Below, one piece after another: positions 1,088 to 64,000 of a stretch of DNA of 64,000 bases. The notes beneath the pieces were generated by a model. That model did no database searches. It had not been told where the DNA came from and was given only the letters and a program-made list of their open reading frames with translations. Position 1 is the stretch's first letter; each line of letters opens with the position of its first letter. This DNA comes from Bryobacterales bacterium. Lineage in GTDB: Bacteria > Acidobacteriota > Terriglobia > Bryobacterales > Bryobacteraceae. The translations under genes were made by a program, and so were the position numbers. The stretch covers positions 71,392-135,391 of the forward strand of contig PLRS01000052.1 of NCBI GenBank assembly GCA_003164035.1, in the 5' to 3' direction.

Positions 1088-2017
1088 TTGATCGTCACTC
1101 TTACCGCGAATCCGGCCATCGACCGGATTCTCAGCGTGGACCGCTTGGCCTTCGAGGACCGCGCCTACATCAATTCCAGCCGCGAGTCGGCCGGCGGCCG
1201 GGGTATCAACGCCTCGCACGTGGTTCATTCCTTCGGCGGCGAAACGCTGGCCATCCTGATCTCGGGAGGCGCCACCGGCAAGCGCCTGGAAGAGCACCTG
1301 CGCGGCTACGGATTTCCATTCCGGGCCGTGCCGGTGCAGAACCGCATTCGCACCAATCTGACGATTACCGATAAGCAGGGCCTGACCGTGAATCTGAACG
1401 AAGCCGGGCCGGTGCTGACCAAGACCGAAGTATCGCGCCTGGAAAAGGTGGTGCGCGAGGCGCTGGAGGGGGCCGATTGGCTGCTGCTGTGCGGCAGCCT
1501 GCCGCCCGGCGTGCCCACTTCGTTTTACGCGCGGCTGATCGCCCTGGCTCGCGCCAGGCGCGTGAAGACCATGCTGCACGCCGACGGCAACGCGCTGCGC
1601 GAGGGAATCGAGGCGAAGCCCACGCTGGCGACTCCCAACCAGCCGGAAGCCGCGCGCCTGCTCAGCCGTACCCTGCTCACGCGCACGCATTACCTGGAAG
1701 CCGCCGCCGAGATTCGCGGCATGGGGCCGGAAACGGTGGTGCTTTCGCTCGGCAGCCGCGGCGCGGTGGGAGCGTTTGCGACGGGTACGGTGGAGGCTAT
1801 TCCGCCGCGCGTCGACGCCGTCTCCCCGATCGGCGCGGGCGACGCCCTGATGGCGGTGTACGCCTGGGCCATGACGCGCAAGCCGGACCCGGTGGATGCT
1901 CTGCGCTGGGGTGTGGCCGCCGGCACCGCTTCGGCCCGCTTGCCCGGCATGAGTTTCGCCAACGTGGCGCAGACCCGGGAGATCTATCGCCAGGTGGAAA
2001 TCCGAAAGGCGGAGTGA
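1088..2017 (+). CDS. PfkB-family hexose/1-phosphofructokinase-like sugar kinase
   Basis: A ribokinase-like (PfkB) kinase of about 309 residues, most like 1-phosphofructokinase and tagatose-6-phosphate kinase, which phosphorylate a sugar phosphate with ATP in the cytoplasm. Signatures: N-terminal TLTANPAIDR, the glycine-rich substrate motif AGGRGINAS, and the C-terminal PfkB signature PIGAGDA with the catalytic aspartate. I chose the TTG at 1088 because it yields MIVTLTANPAID, matching family N-termini; the upstream in-frame ATG at 1034 would overlap the divergent gene and add non-homologous residues. The zinc-ribbon gene follows 25 bases downstream and may be co-transcribed. The sugar specificity is not certain. 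Confidence 0.88.
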   Translation: MIVTLTANPAIDRILSVDRLAFEDRAYINSSRESAGGRGINASHVVHSFGGETLAILISGGATGKRLEEHLRGYGFPFRAVPVQNRIRTNLTITDKQGLTVNLNEAGPVLTKTEVSRLEKVVREALEGADWLLLCGSLPPGVPTSFYARLIALARARRVKTMLHADGNALREGIEAKPTLATPNQPEAARLLSRTLLTRTHYLEAAAEIRGMGPETVVLSLGSRGAVGAFATGTVEAIPPRVDAVSPIGAGDALMAVYAWAMTRKPDPVDALRWGVAAGTASARLPGMSFANVAQTREIYRQVEIRKAE

Positions 2018-2042
2018 CGCGTGTTACACTGCCATAGTAGAG

Positions 2043-2798
2043 ATGCTCTCCGACCTGAAGTTGGTGATCCGCCTCCAAGAACTGGATAGCCGTGTGGGCG
2101 AACTGGAGGCCGAAGTGGCCGCTCTGCCCAGGCACATCGCGGAAATTCAAAAAAAACTGGTTTCACACGAGCGGAAGCTGGAAGCCGATCGTGCCGCCCT
2201 CGCCGCCAATCAGAAGGAGCGCAAGCAGCGCGAAGGCGAGATCCAGGCCCAGGAGCAGAAGATTTCGAAGCTGAAAGACCAGATGCTCCAGGTCAAGACT
2301 AACGACCAATACCGGGCCTTTCAGAACGAGATCGACTTCTGCCAGCAGGAAATCCACAAGTTCGAGGACCGCATCCTGGAATTGATGAGCGAATCGGAAC
2401 CGCTGGACCGCGCCGTGAAGGTGGCCGAAGAGGCTCTGAAAGCGGAAAAAGTGGAAGTCGAAGCCGAGGCGCAAACCGCCCGCGAGCGCACCGACAAAGA
2501 CCGGCGGGCGCTGGACGAACTGCGGAAAGAGCGCGGCGCGATTGCTGTGCAGGTCACCAAACCTACCTATCAGCGCTACGAACGGAGCCGCAGGACGCGC
2601 AAAGGAATCGCGGTGGCGGAGGCGGTCGACGGACGATGTACCGCCTGCCAGATGTCCATGCGGCAGCAATTCCTGCAGGATCTGCGCAAGGGAGAACAGA
2701 TCATGGTCTGCGAAAGCTGCCAGAGAATCCTGTTCTACAACCCCCCAGTGCCGGTGGAAGACCTGGACGGCGCCGCCACCTCAGCCGCTCCGCGGTAG
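2043..2798 (+). CDS. Coiled-coil protein with C-terminal C4 zinc ribbon
   Basis: A 251-residue cytoplasmic protein: a long charged coiled coil (about residues 5-170, rich in E, K, Q and heptads) followed by a C4 zinc ribbon, CTAC at 199-202 and CESC at 223-226. This is the zf-RING_7 / CT398 family, conserved in many bacterial phyla and often annotated as a putative nucleic-acid-binding or secretion-associated zinc ribbon protein; its molecular role is not established. Length and architecture match the family. It follows the PfkB kinase closely, and a palindromic element just after its stop could end transcription. Confidence 0.85.
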   Translation: MLSDLKLVIRLQELDSRVGELEAEVAALPRHIAEIQKKLVSHERKLEADRAALAANQKERKQREGEIQAQEQKISKLKDQMLQVKTNDQYRAFQNEIDFCQQEIHKFEDRILELMSESEPLDRAVKVAEEALKAEKVEVEAEAQTARERTDKDRRALDELRKERGAIAVQVTKPTYQRYERSRRTRKGIAVAEAVDGRCTACQMSMRQQFLQDLRKGEQIMVCESCQRILFYNPPVPVEDLDGAATSAAPR

Positions 2799-2804
2799 CC
2801 AACC

Positions 2805-2869
2805 GTGGGACCGGCCTCCCGGCCGGTCTTCCTGGTTATCAAAACGACAGGCCGGGAGGCCTGTCCCAC
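2805..2869. repeat. Palindromic element between convergent genes
   Basis: Arms 2805-2828 and 2846-2869 form an inverted repeat of 24 bases with two mismatches, starting GTGGGACCGGCC and ending GGCCTGTCCCAC. Each arm also folds on itself (GACAGGCC...GGCCTGTC). It sits between two convergent stop codons, so it may act as a bidirectional terminator although no T-tract is present. A single arm almost identical in sequence occurs at 42180-42203. Confidence 0.7.
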
Positions 2870-2875
2870 AGCTCG

Positions 2876-3577
2876 CTACTTGTTTCCCCAGCTATAGCCG
2901 ACCCAAACCGTTTCTTCCGTCACGAACGAGGTGCCGAACTGCGTCAGATTGTTCACCCAGTGCGCCTTGAACTGCGGCTCGATATACATATGATCGGTGA
3001 GGTAAATCATCACGCCGGCGCCGAAATTCGCCGCAAAGTGGTTGGAACTTCCGGCGTATGAGGAGTAACTCTGGGTGCCGGTGAGCGCGGTGGTGGAACT
3101 TTCGCTCTCGTAGAATTTGAGATTGTCTCCACCGATGCCGCCAAAAATGCGCAATGCGGCGCGCTTGCTGCTCACCGCCTGGTAGACCGCGTCAAAATCG
3201 TAAAACGTGGTGCGCGATTGGATCGTGTAGCCGGGGTAGTTCGCGCCGGCGGCCGGAATATTCACGTAAGTCTGTTTCGACGGTTGCGTGGTGAAATCGA
3301 TCCCGAAGCCGAGATTGTGCTTCAACAGCACGGTGCCCCCGAAGCCCAGCATGAAGCTGTTCAGACTGCTGGGCAGGACCGGATCGGTACAGGAGGTACT
3401 CGTGGTGCAACTGTTGAGGGCGTTGGTGGACAGTTGATCGCCTTCAATGGGCGTGGTGGTGGCTTTGGCTTGGGCGGCGCCGAAGCCCATGTTGATGTCG
3501 AACTGGCTTTGCGCGTAGGCAACCGGAAAAAGGGAAAGCAGTAGGGAAAGCGGAAGGTAACGGCAAATTCGTCTCAC
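2876..3577 (-). CDS. Small outer-membrane beta-barrel-like protein
   Basis: A 233-residue exported protein with a clear signal peptide (ends VAYAQ, about residue 23). The rest alternates aromatic/hydrophobic and polar residues, as in 8-stranded outer-membrane barrels of the OmpA/OMP_b-brl type, and it ends in alternating aromatic residues (VWVGYSWGNK). The start is GTG at 3577, preceded by GAGGAG at good spacing. It contains a pair of cysteines near 57-62 (NSCTTSTSC). No catalytic motif is visible. A structural or small-solute role at the outer membrane is inference. Confidence 0.65.
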   Translation of the reverse strand: MRRICRYLPLSLLLSLFPVAYAQSQFDINMGFGAAQAKATTTPIEGDQLSTNALNSCTTSTSCTDPVLPSSLNSFMLGFGGTVLLKHNLGFGIDFTTQPSKQTYVNIPAAGANYPGYTIQSRTTFYDFDAVYQAVSSKRAALRIFGGIGGDNLKFYESESSTTALTGTQSYSSYAGSSNHFAANFGAGVMIYLTDHMYIEPQFKAHWVNNLTQFGTSFVTEETVWVGYSWGNK

Positions 3578-58611: not shown

Positions 58612-61600
58612 CTATTGACGTTCCGCCCTTTCCAAAGTGTCGAAGAGCGGTTGCGCGGGCTTCAACTCGGGGTTCGTTTCGGCTACGGAAACGGCCAGCA
58701 CGCGGATCTTGTCGTTATCCGGCAGGGTCAGGGTCTTGGCCCCGGCGGGCAGATCGATGGCGTAGGCGAACAGGTACGAATAGCCGTAGGGAACGTTGGC
58801 TCCCTGGGCGTCATGATGGTGGGATGCGTACCAGGCGATGGCGGCGGGCTTGATGTAGCCGGGCGTCAGGCCGACCATTTCGCGGTACGGATCCTGCTCC
58901 GTTTGGCCATTGCGGTCCACCCTCGTGCCGCTCTTCCAGACGCGATTGTCCCACTGGCCGACGAAGCCGCCCCAGTTTTCCACCGTCACTTCCCGGCTGC
59001 GGTCGCCGGCGCGGAAGGCGGCTTTCTGGTCGCCATCGGCCGAGGCGGCCAGCACGTACACGCGATTGAATGAGCCGGCCGGCAGAGCCAAAGTCTGTCC
59101 CTTGGCGGCCACGGCATTCGGCGTTCCCGCTTTGGCCGGCGCCAGCGTGAACGCGACGCCGTCGAGAGTCAAAGCCGTGGGAAGCATTTCGGCGGGATAC
59201 GAATTGCCATGGCCGTCAAAGCCGTCAGCCGATTTGGCACCGTCTTCGGAAGCAGTGGCAAGATCGTAGGTGAGCTCGACCGGCCGCGACCGGACGGCTG
59301 GAATCCTGGACGCTTTAGGGCCGAGTTTCAGAGCGAAAGTCCGCGGCTCGAAAGCGCTAAACGAAGTGACCAGAACACCACTCGAAACAGTGGCCTCACC
59401 GACGGGCTGCTCCTGCCCATTGATTTCGCGCGCGGCCACGATCGGAGCGGCCATCGACACGCGCACGTTATCGGCGGGACGGCCGTCGAGCTCCACCATC
59501 CGGACGACGACTTCGTCGCTCGATTCGGCCTTCTTCACCGCCAGCACGCGGATGCGCGGGTTGGAGACTTTGAGCAGCGAGAACTGCTTGCCGAGGGCGC
59601 CGGGATGTTTCGCGGATTCAAAGGCGATCGGCGGCTCGTTCAGGCGCCATGCCTGCCAGTCGGTCCCGGAGTGAATGCGGTCGCCGGGGTGTCCGGCAAT
59701 TCCGTAGACGAATTCGTGATGGCCGAGATCCTGGGTGGCCTGGTCGGGATAGCCGCCGCGAACGCCCGGGGTACGCAGCAGGGTCAGGCGAATCACGTTG
59801 TCGCGCGGTTTGTCGGAGCCGTTCTTGCAATCGGTCAGGATGGTGGTGCCGAAGGAACCCGACGCGTCGGTGAGGTCGATCCACTGGTGCGAAGGCACTT
59901 CGAACTTCTTCGGTTCGGCGGTGGGCCGTTCGATGGTGCCGATGTCCCAGTTGTAAGTGGCCACGTGGTTATAGGCGGTCAGGGGGAACACGGCTTTCAG
60001 GTTAACCTCGCGGGTGTTCCAATCGATCGCGTTGCCGATCTCGACGCGATTGCCGGGGTCGCCGGCCGCCAGGCTGACGGTCTGGACGAACTTGGATCCC
60101 TCGGTCTCGCGGGCAATCTCGACCGAAACCCGCACCGGGCCGTTCTCGGTAACTTTAATGGTGGCCGGGCCGCTAACGAAAGTGCGCGGCGGCGCCTGCT
60201 CCTGGTCCCAGTCCATATTCCAGGCGGGCCACTGCACAGGATTATCGTAGGAAATCGCCAGTCGCGCCGGCGCGGCGAGCAGTTCCTTTTGAATGGACTT
60301 ATCGAAAATACTGCCGATGTCGCCGGTGGGATCGATGCGGACCCGGTAGCGGGCGTTTTCGAGAGTGGATTCGGAGACATGAAGGGCGGAGCTCGAAGCC
60401 TCGCTGGCGGCTGGCTCGACGTCGTACACCGCATAGCCCACCGAGGGCACTTTGGCGAGGAACAATACGCGGCCGTTAGAGAGCTGCGCCGGCACGGCGA
60501 GACCCTCCGGCCCGACCACCCGAACCGCCTTGGTCCCGGCGGGCAAGTCGACTTTGGCTTCCACCAGGTCTTCGCGAGCCACGTTGAGCGGGTTGTACAC
60601 AACCAGCGCTATGCCCTTGGTTTGAGTGTCGAGGCCGGCGGCCACCGCTTCACTGGCATTCGCCATCACGCCGGCGAACTGGTTCATGGCGATGACGTCG
60701 TCGTTCCAGGCGAACTCGTAGGATTTGGGCGTAGCCGTGCCAGCGGCGATATCGTGAAAATGGCCGCCCATGGCGAGGGTCCAGGCATCGTTCAAACGCT
60801 CCCTGGGGTAAGGCCGGGCGCCCAGCCATTCGGCCGCGATGGAGGCTTTCTCGGCGCCATCGGCGAGCAGTTCCTCCTTCCGGATCCAGCGCTTCTGATA
60901 AGCCTGGGACGTGAGCGACCCGGCCGAGTGGTTGGTCAGCTCCATCTCCCCGGTGAAGCGCGGCAAACTGGCCGCTTCGGCGGGCGTGATGTCGAGAAAC
61001 ATCTGGTCGGCTTTGGAGGAAAGCACATGGACGGGACCGTTGCCGACCCTCACGTTCGGATCCGAACCGATTTGCGCCGTGCCCTTGGTAACGATGGCTT
61101 CCAGCAGCTTGACGGATTTCTCGCGCGGGGAGCCACCGATATCGCCGGTGCCATAGTAGTGGTAATCGGTTTGGACGCCGGTGAATTTGCCGTTGTTCTC
61201 GACGCGCGCGGCCCAGTCGCCCTGGTAGCGGCGCAGCGCCTGGTCGTCGGTGAGCTTGCCGGCCGGCGCGGGAAGCGGCGTGGTAAGGTCGGTGGTAATG
61301 TCGGCGCTATAGTCGCCAGGGTTGATGCCGGCGAGCACCGTCTTTCCATCCGGGCCCACCCACACGCCCACATCGAAGGGAGTGCCGACCGGAGTCTTTT
61401 CCATGGACTCCACGCCGCCGCCATCGGCCGAGGAACCCCACACCAGCTTCTGCGTGGAGAACCCTTTCACCCCGGCATGGGCCAGAATGCTGGGCAGGGA
61501 GGCCGGGAAGCCGAAACAATCCGGCAGCATGTACTCGGCGCTGGCCGTGCCCAACTCCTTGCGAAACCAATTATTGCCGTAAAGGACCTGGCGAACGATG

Positions 61601-61992
61601 CCCTCGGCGCTGGGCGCGTTGACGTCGCCTTCCTCCACCGACGAGCCGGCCGGGAACCAGCGGCCGGAATTCACGTACTGCTTCACTTTGGCGAAGTCGG
61701 CTGGGAAATACTCCTTCATGAAACGATAGCGGTTCGAACCGGAGAAATTGAAAATGTAGTGCGGGTACTTTTCGAATAGCGCGAAGTTGTCGCGCATGGT
61801 GTGCACAATGTATTCGTCGATGACCTGCGGATACTCCCAACGCCACTCCGTATCGAGGTGAGCGTAGCCGACCACATACAAGGTGGGTTGGCGGGTGAGA
61901 TCCGGCGCGGGATCGGCGGCAACGGCCTGGACGGGCCGGAAAACGAGAGCCGCAACCGATAAGAGGAGCCAGAAAAGCGTCTGTTTTGCCAT
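58612..61992 (-). CDS. Secreted glycoside hydrolase family 38 alpha-mannosidase-like
   Basis: A 1,126-residue GH38 enzyme with a signal peptide (LFWLLLSVAALVFRPVQAVA). The catalytic domain holds VVGYAHLDTEWRWEYPQ (zinc His-x-Asp), the nucleophile region YMLPDCFGFPASLPSIL (Asp), GFSTQKLVWGS and MGGHFHDIAAGTATPKSYE. A middle three-helix domain and a long beta C-terminal part follow (SIFDKSIQKELL; VYGIAGHPGDRIHSG). It cleaves alpha-mannosides outside the cytoplasm. ATG 61992 follows AGGAATT. It is flanked by two copies of the 120-bp palindromic element. Confidence 0.9.
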   Translation of the reverse strand: MAKQTLFWLLLSVAALVFRPVQAVAADPAPDLTRQPTLYVVGYAHLDTEWRWEYPQVIDEYIVHTMRDNFALFEKYPHYIFNFSGSNRYRFMKEYFPADFAKVKQYVNSGRWFPAGSSVEEGDVNAPSAEGIVRQVLYGNNWFRKELGTASAEYMLPDCFGFPASLPSILAHAGVKGFSTQKLVWGSSADGGGVESMEKTPVGTPFDVGVWVGPDGKTVLAGINPGDYSADITTDLTTPLPAPAGKLTDDQALRRYQGDWAARVENNGKFTGVQTDYHYYGTGDIGGSPREKSVKLLEAIVTKGTAQIGSDPNVRVGNGPVHVLSSKADQMFLDITPAEAASLPRFTGEMELTNHSAGSLTSQAYQKRWIRKEELLADGAEKASIAAEWLGARPYPRERLNDAWTLAMGGHFHDIAAGTATPKSYEFAWNDDVIAMNQFAGVMANASEAVAAGLDTQTKGIALVVYNPLNVAREDLVEAKVDLPAGTKAVRVVGPEGLAVPAQLSNGRVLFLAKVPSVGYAVYDVEPAASEASSSALHVSESTLENARYRVRIDPTGDIGSIFDKSIQKELLAAPARLAISYDNPVQWPAWNMDWDQEQAPPRTFVSGPATIKVTENGPVRVSVEIARETEGSKFVQTVSLAAGDPGNRVEIGNAIDWNTREVNLKAVFPLTAYNHVATYNWDIGTIERPTAEPKKFEVPSHQWIDLTDASGSFGTTILTDCKNGSDKPRDNVIRLTLLRTPGVRGGYPDQATQDLGHHEFVYGIAGHPGDRIHSGTDWQAWRLNEPPIAFESAKHPGALGKQFSLLKVSNPRIRVLAVKKAESSDEVVVRMVELDGRPADNVRVSMAAPIVAAREINGQEQPVGEATVSSGVLVTSFSAFEPRTFALKLGPKASRIPAVRSRPVELTYDLATASEDGAKSADGFDGHGNSYPAEMLPTALTLDGVAFTLAPAKAGTPNAVAAKGQTLALPAGSFNRVYVLAASADGDQKAAFRAGDRSREVTVENWGGFVGQWDNRVWKSGTRVDRNGQTEQDPYREMVGLTPGYIKPAAIAWYASHHHDAQGANVPYGYSYLFAYAIDLPAGAKTLTLPDNDKIRVLAVSVAETNPELKPAQPLFDTLERAERQ

Positions 61993-62181
61993 AAGTGAAT
62001 TCCTGCACCCTCTATAGTAAGGCCGATCGGCGGTCCTGCGACAAGCCCCCTCTGTGGGGCCGGCAGTGTCCTCCGCTTTGCGCAGCCGCCGACCCCTCTC
62101 GTAGACTGTCGCGTTGGCGCAATAGGTACTAATTTGGCGGATGCCACATAGTTTTCACTTTGGCGACGTTCGGCACAAATC

Positions 62182-62302
62182 GTGGGGCAGCCAATTCTGG
62201 CTGCAGCCGGCTTTTAGCCGGCTCTCGCCCTGGATGGAAGACTCGCCACGCCTCGAAAGAGCCGCCTAGAAAGGCGGCTGCGGGCAAAATTGCCCACCCC
62301 AC
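62182..62302. repeat. 120-bp palindromic element copy 2
   Basis: Nearly the same sequence as 58325-58444 and in the same orientation: GTGGGGCAGCCAATTCTGGC at the left, GCCGGCTTTTAGCCGGC, AGCCGCCTAGAAAGGCGGCT and GGGCAAAATTGCCC, ending CACCCCAC. The middle (62224-62255) is the most diverged part. Both copies are followed by ATGCAG a few bases later. Confidence 0.85.
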
Positions 62303-62332
62303 TTATGCAGGTTCGTGCCGGCCGGGGGAAAA

Positions 62333-62473
62333 CTATGTGGCATTGACCCAATTTGGCCCGAGCTGCCGGCGCCGGCGCGCTCTCGCGGCCATCCCGACGA
62401 TCTCCGCGTAAAGCCAGACCAACGTCAGGGCAAGGCCGAAGGCGGCGTACCACTCCATGTATTTCGGAGCGCA
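62333..62473 (-). pseudogene. C-terminal remnant of a Bax inhibitor-1-like membrane protein
   Basis: The minus-strand frame reads APKYMEWYAAFGLALTLVWLY followed by AEIVGMAARARRRRQLG and ends at a TAG (62333-62335). This looks like the last helix and basic tail of Bax inhibitor-1/YccA-family proteins, whose C-termini in related bacteria have EWY..F....TLVWLY.EI. Only about 45 codons remain; upstream sequence gives no further helices and soon runs into the repeat array. The identification is from memory of the family and is tentative. Confidence 0.45.
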
Positions 62474-62563
62474 CGCGGCAGCGGAACAGGCCGAAGCGGA
62501 AGAGAAACTCAAACGGGCAACCTATGCGGGGAAACGCGGGACGGAGGGAAACGCGGGAAAAAA

Positions 62564-63042
62564 CCGGTGACAAGAAACCGAAAAACCGGTGACGGAAAAA
62601 CCAAAAAAACCGGTGACAAAAAACCGACAGAAAAAGCCGGTGACAGAAAAAGCCGGTGACAGGCTATGTGTTCACTAGTAATTCCGGACGAAAAAACCGG
62701 TGACAGGCTACGTGTTCACTTCTAGGACGAAAAAACCGGTGACAGGCTACGTGTTCACTTCTAAAAAACCAAAAAAACCGGTGACAAGGCTACGAAAAAA
62801 CCGGTGACAAATACGAAAAAACCTGTTCACTAAAAACCGGTGACAAAAAACCGGTGACAGGCTACGTGTTCACTAGTTTTCTGAAAAAACCGAAAACCGG
62901 TGACAAACCGAAAACCGGTGACAGGCTACGTGTTCACTAGTTTTCTGAGCGCGAAAAACCCCGAAAAACCCGAAAAACCCGAAAAACCCGAAAAACAGAA
63001 AAACCGGTGACAGGCTACGTGTTCACTAGTTTTCTGAGCGCG
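62564..63042. repeat. Array of 14 CCGGTGAC boxes
   Basis: Fourteen copies of CCGGTGACA or close variants start at 62564, 62586, 62610, 62637, 62653, 62697, 62736, 62778, 62801, 62837, 62851, 62897, 62915 and 63004. Six are followed directly by GGCTACGTGTTCACT (once with T for C). Boxes are separated by A-rich spacers such as GAAAAAACC; a GAAAAACCC unit is tandem about four times near 62953-62995. CTAGTTTTCTGAGCGCGA follows the last two full units. Spacing is irregular and there is no open frame. Confidence 0.85.
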
Positions 63043-63640
63043 AGTGGGACGGGGACAGTGGGGACAGCCTGACGCGAGCCCTTCGTAATTCGCGGGTCCC
63101 GTATTATCACGCAGATACAGAGCCATTCTCAAGCGCAAGGGATGAGCGCTCTTTTGTTTTCAGCGAATCCGGGTGGTCTGCGGACCCCGAAATTCGCCAA
63201 GGGGACAGGGCGCCCTGTCCCTATCCCGCGCTTCAATACGCTTCGCGCGCGCCGCGGGGAAATGCGGGGCCGCCAATCCCGGTCACGGAGCGTAACCCAT
63301 TGATAACAAAGTCTGCTGGAGGCCAGCCGCTTGACCGCCCATGGTAACCTGTGTGCGGGGGGGAGAGAGGCTCTTGAAATTAGAGAATTACGGTGTCTTG
63401 GGCGGCTTTTACCGAACGAACTCGTTATTGCCCCGTAAATCACAGGGAGTCCGGGGACAGACGTAGGGAGACCCTCACACAGCCCGGAAAATCGGGGAAG
63501 CTTTCGCTGAAATCCGACTTCCGGTCTTTATAGAAGATATGTAATGTACCCCATGGTTGCGGCTGCCTTGTTCGTCGGGCGTTCGGACTGCCTTCGCAGC
63601 CGCCCTCTTCGGGCTGCCGGCGTAATGCCGCCCTTCGGAT
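63043..63640. other. Non-coding stretch without recognised feature
   Basis: No gene with recognisable protein sequence is found. Frames of 60-170 codons exist on both strands, but their products are arginine/cysteine-rich and resemble nothing known. Local pieces such as GACAGGGCGCCCTGTC (63205-63220) are small palindromes. Confidence 0.45.
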
Positions 63641-63650
63641 GTGCGTCCCA

Positions 63651-64000
63651 TGCACAAGAATGCACAACCATGCACAACGGAAGAAGCCCCCGATAAACGC
63701 CGGTGAAGAAAGTAAAGGGCTTATTTGTTTTCTCGCGCCCCGGGCGACGCGCAAGAATGCACAACGATGCACGACTGGCTCTGGCAAGAACAGCTCCCTG
63801 CGGGGCGCGCATCGTCGCGCGTATTGCCAGCCGTCACAAAGCCTGGAAAAGTGCGTCAATCCATGCACAAGAATGCACAAAAGCTGGCCGACGATCCCCG
63901 GCGGTTGATCGCGGTTCGGTCGGCCGGCATGCACAAGAATGCACAAGGGTGCACAACGGAAGAACCCCCCGTTCAGAACCAGCGAAGAAATTAAAGGACT
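63651..64000. repeat. 10-bp-phased TGCACAA boxes
   Basis: TGCACAA or close variants begin at 63651, 63661, 63671; 63748 (CGCAAGAA variant), 63758, 63768; 63864, 63874; and 63930, 63940, 63950. Within each cluster the step is exactly 10 bases. Two clusters (63651 and 63930) share a downstream sequence, ACGGAAGAA...C(C)CCC...GAAGAAA.T.AAAGG, so the whole unit of about 70 bases is duplicated. The array may continue beyond the window. Confidence 0.8.

Follow-up and report, generated by a model that had tools for sequence, protein, structure and literature searches.

A one-sided, outward-facing array of half-palindromes probably related to RAYT end-repeats in a Bryobacterales genome

RAYT transposases cut REP-type sequences in the test tube and, to our knowledge, the spread of these sequences is poorly understood, their multiplication being a long-standing open question. 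Studies on the TnpA-REP enzymes showed that they cut at C|T, and the Marinomonas enzyme also at C|A, that the E. coli and Stenotrophomonas enzymes do not act on an inverted REP, and that the 3'-OH left by the cut can prime synthesis or transfer (PMC8266576). A related group, the TIRYT genes, Acidobacteria included, presents inverted repeats sharing the motif GGGGWSAS, and TIRtron copies are found singly, as dimers and in groups (Di Nocera et al. 2013, PMC3733652). A 2018 survey placed 20 of 26 TIRYTs in subclass 2.1, for which the criteria are NHVH, W[EQ], YIELNP or Y[IV]HLNP and a C-terminal helix-turn-helix, and reported no REP-like sequences near the genes of this subclass (PMC6006769). Finally, the tandem clusters known for REPINs are composed of whole units with their flanks (PMC3116915).

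The locus studied here lies near the end of the window, by which we mean the whole 64-kb stretch of DNA that was analysed. The original prediction described an A-rich array of 14 boxes, six of them joined to a second sequence, and this count was confirmed: 14 CCGGTGAC boxes are found on the plus strand between 62564 and 63011, and six of them run on into GGCTACGTGTTCACT to form complete 24-nt units, one of which has a T in place of the C at 62667. The box occurs 20 times in the whole window, for an expected 3.5 ± 1.65 and a maximum of 8 in 100 shuffles. The contrast with GC-rich surroundings also held, since the array has 45% G+C and 40% A against 63% G+C and a median A of 18% for the window, of which it is the most A-rich 486-base stretch. 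No fixed period exists, as had been predicted: the successive spacings (22, 24, 27, 16, 44, 39, 42, 23, 36, 14, 46, 18 and 89) are aperiodic and out of frame. A CRISPR was rejected on the basis of these irregular distances of 14 to 89 and of fillers consisting of degenerate arm sequence, and a coding repeat because of the out-of-frame spacing and of 7 stops in one reading frame across the array, which is therefore not a gene. An Rfam RNA family was rejected as well, the only match within 62300-63300 being below threshold (15.4 bits versus 46.7, E 0.53) and outside the array.

Taken as a whole (62557 to 63042, plus strand, like all elements listed here), the array consists of 8 outer-arm half units, noted l, and 6 complete palindromic units, noted F, in the order llllFFFlllFlFF. 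Four outer-arm boxes (62564, 62586, 62610 and 62637, spanning 62564 to 62644) stand 5' of the first complete unit, CCGGTGACAGGCTATGTGTTCACT (62653 to 62676), which is followed by units 2 (62697 to 62720) and 3 (62736 to 62759). Three further outer-arm boxes (62778, 62801 and 62837, spanning 62778 to 62844) come next, the first extending to GGCTACG, and among them lies a lone scrap of right arm, TGTTCACT (62824-62831). Unit 4 (62851 to 62874) forms with its flanks AAACC...TAGTTTTC a longer imperfect palindrome. One outer-arm box (62897 to 62904) precedes unit 5 (62915 to 62938), and a run of the shortest arm remnants, of 9 bases (CGAAAAACC), occupies 62952 to 63003 ahead of unit 6 (63004 to 63027), the 3'-most element. 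The 3' flank of unit 5, TAGTTTTCTGAGCGCGA, recurs after unit 6, indicating that a whole unit was duplicated together with its flank.

Copies of the unit, an imperfect palindrome, are scattered through the genome. The original prediction proposed searching the genome for it, and the search returned single copies elsewhere: its 21-base core gives 25 matches with at most 3 mismatches in the 8.0-Mb genome, and none in the reversed control. The unit is present at about 15 places in this genome and also in a second genus. Outside the window its commonest form is GAAAACCGGTGACAGGCTACGTGTTTCCyAGTTTTC. When 84,980 species genomes were scanned for exact matches, the element form was recovered in one other organism only, the Bryobacterales MAG palsa_129, whose element sequences are the same as those from a member (G020) of the window genome's family; on this basis we regard the host as a Bryobacteraceae-like acidobacterium. 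Two Burkholderiales matches from the scan of genome contigs were discarded: the stretch is near-identical between both, holds no array and apparently belongs to one shared coding gene.

Taken alone, the window version of the unit is a weak hairpin and folds no better than shuffled sequences. When repeats bordering homologous RAYTs are aligned with the window unit over 30 positions, a shared stem of 9 pairs is kept in 80% of cells. In 13 cells both sides have changed, for a shuffled mean of 6.1 and with 0 of 500 shuffles as high, a result that counts as support rather than proof because the rows were chosen by hand and the structure derived from the same rows. Shifting the partner column by 1 to 3 positions lowers every measure. 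The original prediction had noticed a rough inverted pair in the compound unit; its reading as an end-site for a transposase agrees with the inverted-repeat character seen here, and its other reading, as a site for a dimeric binding protein, does not, the pair fitting an imperfect hairpin and not an operator.

One of the dispersed copies borders a transposase gene, as the prediction had suggested looking for. On contig 96, an llF arrangement (two half arms and a full unit) is separated by about 10 nt from the start of a downstream gene for a 230-aa Y1_Tnp protein with the motifs HVH (NHVH), WQ and YVERNP, the last without the L. Pfam identifies no helix-turn-helix in this RAYT, its score with NF047646 is 62 bits for a cut-off of 80, and its score with the NCBIfam IS200 model is far below the cut-off. 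We estimate the chance of finding a unit within 100 nt upstream of a RAYT at about 0.001 (on the basis of about 15 loci, 4 RAYT genes of the contig-96 type and 8 Mb), or a few-fold higher when the calculation is restricted to intergenic space. No inverted copy of the unit subfamily was found within 1.2 kb downstream of this gene, so the enzyme is only the likely cognate of the unit, and for the same reason we file the unit as a close relative of a TIRYT terminal repeat and not as a proven one.

On contigs 13 and 46, related repeats flank the gene as inverted copies at both ends, and the same is seen in a genome from another family of the same class (G291) and for most homologues. Among the homologous RAYT loci of the class with both flanks readable, counted manually, 24 of 31 give an upstream/downstream inverted match score of at least 14, versus 5 in the direct-repeat control. 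Many of these inverted repeats have the design GGGGACAG...TTCCCC and several resemble AAAAGGGGACAGGAACACAATTCCCCTTTT. The window units read GGTGACAG, one base off GGGGWSAS; in another member of the family, on contig 107, the sequence is GGGGACAG, which fits the motif. That the unit belongs with the end-repeats of RAYTs and TIRYTs is thus, in our judgement, very probable; the step from the unit to its own cognate RAYT is likely.

The element resembles the TIRYT terminal repeats in presenting inverted repeats, with a sequence close to GGGGWSAS, beside an IS200-like HUH transposase gene, and it differs from them in the one-base deviation of the window variant, in having only an upstream copy at the likely cognate gene, and in its one-sided outer-arm arrays, no description of which was found in the accessible parts of the TIRtron article (PMC3733652). 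The enzyme itself resembles TnpA-REP subclass 2.1 (Bertels group 1) by its NHVH and WQ motifs, its catalytic Y..NP motif and its size (230 aa for a median of 238; PMC6006769). In contrast with the survey of that subclass, its likely relatives here come with covarying palindromic repeats, some of which have dispersed copies, and RAYTs resembling subclass 2.1 thereby gain a palindromic repeat partner. With the REP, BIME and REPIN sequences of GTAG-type RAYTs the unit shares the short, dispersed, imperfect palindrome tied to a RAYT and the tandem clusters. However, its foot is GAAAACC and not GT[AG]G (GTAG is found only inside the loop, on the complementary strand), and its clusters are largely made of half-units of fixed polarity and not of whole REPINs with flanks. 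A HUH single-tyrosine transposase acting on single-stranded palindromic ends is also found in IS200/IS605 elements such as IS608 and ISDra2, but no subterminal hairpin/guide arrangement is evident for the unit and no tnpB was seen. The original prediction had thought of IS21-type ends, which likewise carry repeated boxes at the transposon end; this attribution is probably wrong, since the sole gene found adjoining the unit encodes a Y1_Tnp of the HUH type, no IstA/IstB-like gene was noticed at the elements and nothing points to IS21.

What sets these clusters apart is their grammar. The arrays parse as n outer (left) arms, with n from 0 to 8, followed by a complete unit, and in 12 of 12 arrays holding both arms and full units, among all fetched loci parsed, the full unit is at the 3' side. 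Right arms lacking left arms are practically absent across the same loci, the scrap at 62824-62831 being the one instance. The arms carry variants private to their own locus (GAACCC, AAAACCC or AAAATC), and their mean identity to the full unit of that locus is 0.976, versus 0.818 when loci are shuffled (0 of 20000 as high), which indicates that they arose in place. The truncation of the arms tends to fall at one step, 52 of 77 copies ending 0 to 3 nt past a C|A dinucleotide (as in GTGAC|AG), although the cut is not sharp: end points spread from -6 to +10, the +1 to +3 classes being inflated by chance matches to the A/G start of the next unit and the -6 class by anchors that are merely A-rich filler. 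The fillers between arms are short, variable and A/G-rich. Two loci on contigs 127 and 156 consist mostly of complete units (lFFFF and lFFFlF), suggesting that whole-unit duplication is a second growth mode. The kind of repeat is known; its directional growth, by the outer arm only and always outward, was not found described, and a limited search of the main texts of the open-access literature returned no description of one-sided half-unit arrays.

The same polarity recurs beyond the window's own unit. Another genus has an lllllF array of its own variant, CCCGTGAC. In the window genome, a second family, that of GGGTCAGCCTGA (GAACGGGTC|AGCCTGACGG), includes an element on contig 46 with arrays on both of its outer sides, of about 3 arms on one side and 9 on the other. 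In G291, a RAYT has arms on the outer side of each of its terminal repeats, AAAACCGGGG(AC) upstream and GAAATTCGGGGACAG downstream. Since outward growth is seen at either end of a single element, and these ends are on opposite strands, the direction of the fork does not cause the polarity, and replication direction was rejected as its source. Strand-specific hairpin stability was rejected too, as no strand bias exists across the set (6 versus 7, P 0.46). Half-arm arrays are uncommon: one array pattern was found in 3 of 399 genomes of the class, a second, wider pattern in none of 200 genomes, and most RAYT-bordering repeats in other genomes have no half-arm array. The contig-46 locus (positions 1378-3050) comprises a RAYT-type element with an intact gene (1504-2169) and, next to it, a second one that apparently retains a gene remnant only and that has outward half-arm arrays at both ends.

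We propose, with a probability of roughly 0.55, that the array arose by local amplification of a TIR/REP-like element of RAYT (REP-associated tyrosine, HUH) transposases, growing through RAYT nicking and re-extension of the arm. The enzyme would nick the unit strand at GTGAC|AG, so that the outer arm would end in a 3'-OH and the remainder would carry a 5' phosphotyrosine. The 3' end would then slip back to the A-rich foot and copy the arm a second time, and the transposase would rejoin the extended end to the remaining half, so that one outer arm would be added per cycle; later, whole units would be duplicated by ordinary repeat slippage. We infer these steps of nicking, slip-back, re-extension and resealing by a RAYT from the pattern of the arrays, as the model fits the polarity, the truncation point, the local origin of the arms and the variable filler. 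In such a case, the one-sided outward arrays, starting mostly from the C|A step, would look like the fossil record of a reaction, and their truncation points would directly predict the cut site of the enzyme. More tentatively, and with a chance that we consider rather small, this nick-primed addition of arms could constitute a DNA repeat-extending activity of RAYT/TIRYT enzymes at their own ends, which stacks outer half-sites outward one at a time; we know of no description of such an activity for HUH transposases. We see the array itself as a probable by-product, without a cellular role of its own.

Among the alternatives, a transposase-free origin of the half-arm arrays, in which RAYT terminal repeats undergo slippage during replication or template switching at the palindrome and the A-rich foot, is possible though doubtful. 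It agrees with the short, variable, A/G-rich fillers, the local origin of the arms and the presence of whole-unit duplications with flank. It would therefore explain the filler and the local origin, but not the polarity: a palindrome offers both arms, yet the outer one alone multiplies, the outward growth of opposite-strand ends leaves no bias to the fork direction, hairpin stability is about equal on the two strands, and a hairpin in the template should halt synthesis at its foot and not at the boundary between arm and loop. An array of protein-binding sites kept by selection, operator- or iteron-like, for a regulator or for the C-terminal domain of a RAYT, would account for multiple boxes in a single orientation, and helix-turn-helix tails have been reported for subclass 2.1 RAYTs (PMC6006769). 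We find this reading quite unlikely, since the number of half-boxes varies from 0 to 8 and their spacing differs between loci, and since the window array sits in a gene-free, repeat-rich stretch.

Nested insertion, the origin that the original prediction proposed to check, supposes that whole elements inserted into or beside earlier copies and that their right halves were then lost, and REPIN clusters in which elements inserted within or alongside existing ones have indeed been described (PMC3116915). Here, however, the boxes are left arms cut at their 3' side and added on the outer side, nesting would leave right halves in equal number, which are practically absent, and the arms agree with the complete unit at the same locus and not with a common source, making this origin very unlikely. 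An assembly error is conceivable in a short-read genome of 169 contigs, in which a 486-base array may exceed the read length, but many loci, mostly shorter than 200 bases, follow the same grammar, and so do arrays in two other genomes that were assembled independently. An artefact of this kind is extremely unlikely as the explanation of the arrays, even if the exact copy number in the window array may be wrong through assembly. Our preferred reading remains growth of the array by RAYT nicking and arm re-extension.

The array lies in sequence rich in repeats and free of genes, bounded by a glycoside hydrolase family 38 (GH38) gene (58612-61992, minus strand) and by a gene at about 64450 in window numbering, past the window end, whose sequence reads as folD. 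The truncated Bax-inhibitor-like fragment that the prediction placed ahead of the array was recovered as 29 C-terminal residues (62378-62464, minus strand) matching positions 203-231 of the 233 of BaxI_1 (PF12811, E 1.9e-9). This remnant adjoins an element of about 200 bp at 62143-62341 that is bounded by terminal inverted repeats of 14 nt (GCCACATAGTTTTC...GAAAACTATGTGGC), contains inner palindromes and looks like a MITE or a REPIN; its terminal repeat has 10 copies in the genome and none in the control. On the other side of the array, GGGGACAGTGGGGACAGCCTGA (63051 to 63072, plus strand) resembles GGGGACAGCCTGAGTAGCC, the terminal repeat of another RAYT of the same genome, on contig 13. A palindrome, GGGACAGGGCGCCCTGTCCC, is found at 63199-63222, and all four GGGGACAG of the window (in this palindrome and at 63051, 63060 and 63453) fall within about 450 bases 3' of the array. 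Finally, a repeat unrelated to the array, ATGCACAAGAATGCACAA, extends from 63640-63950 onward past the window, with several copies before folD.
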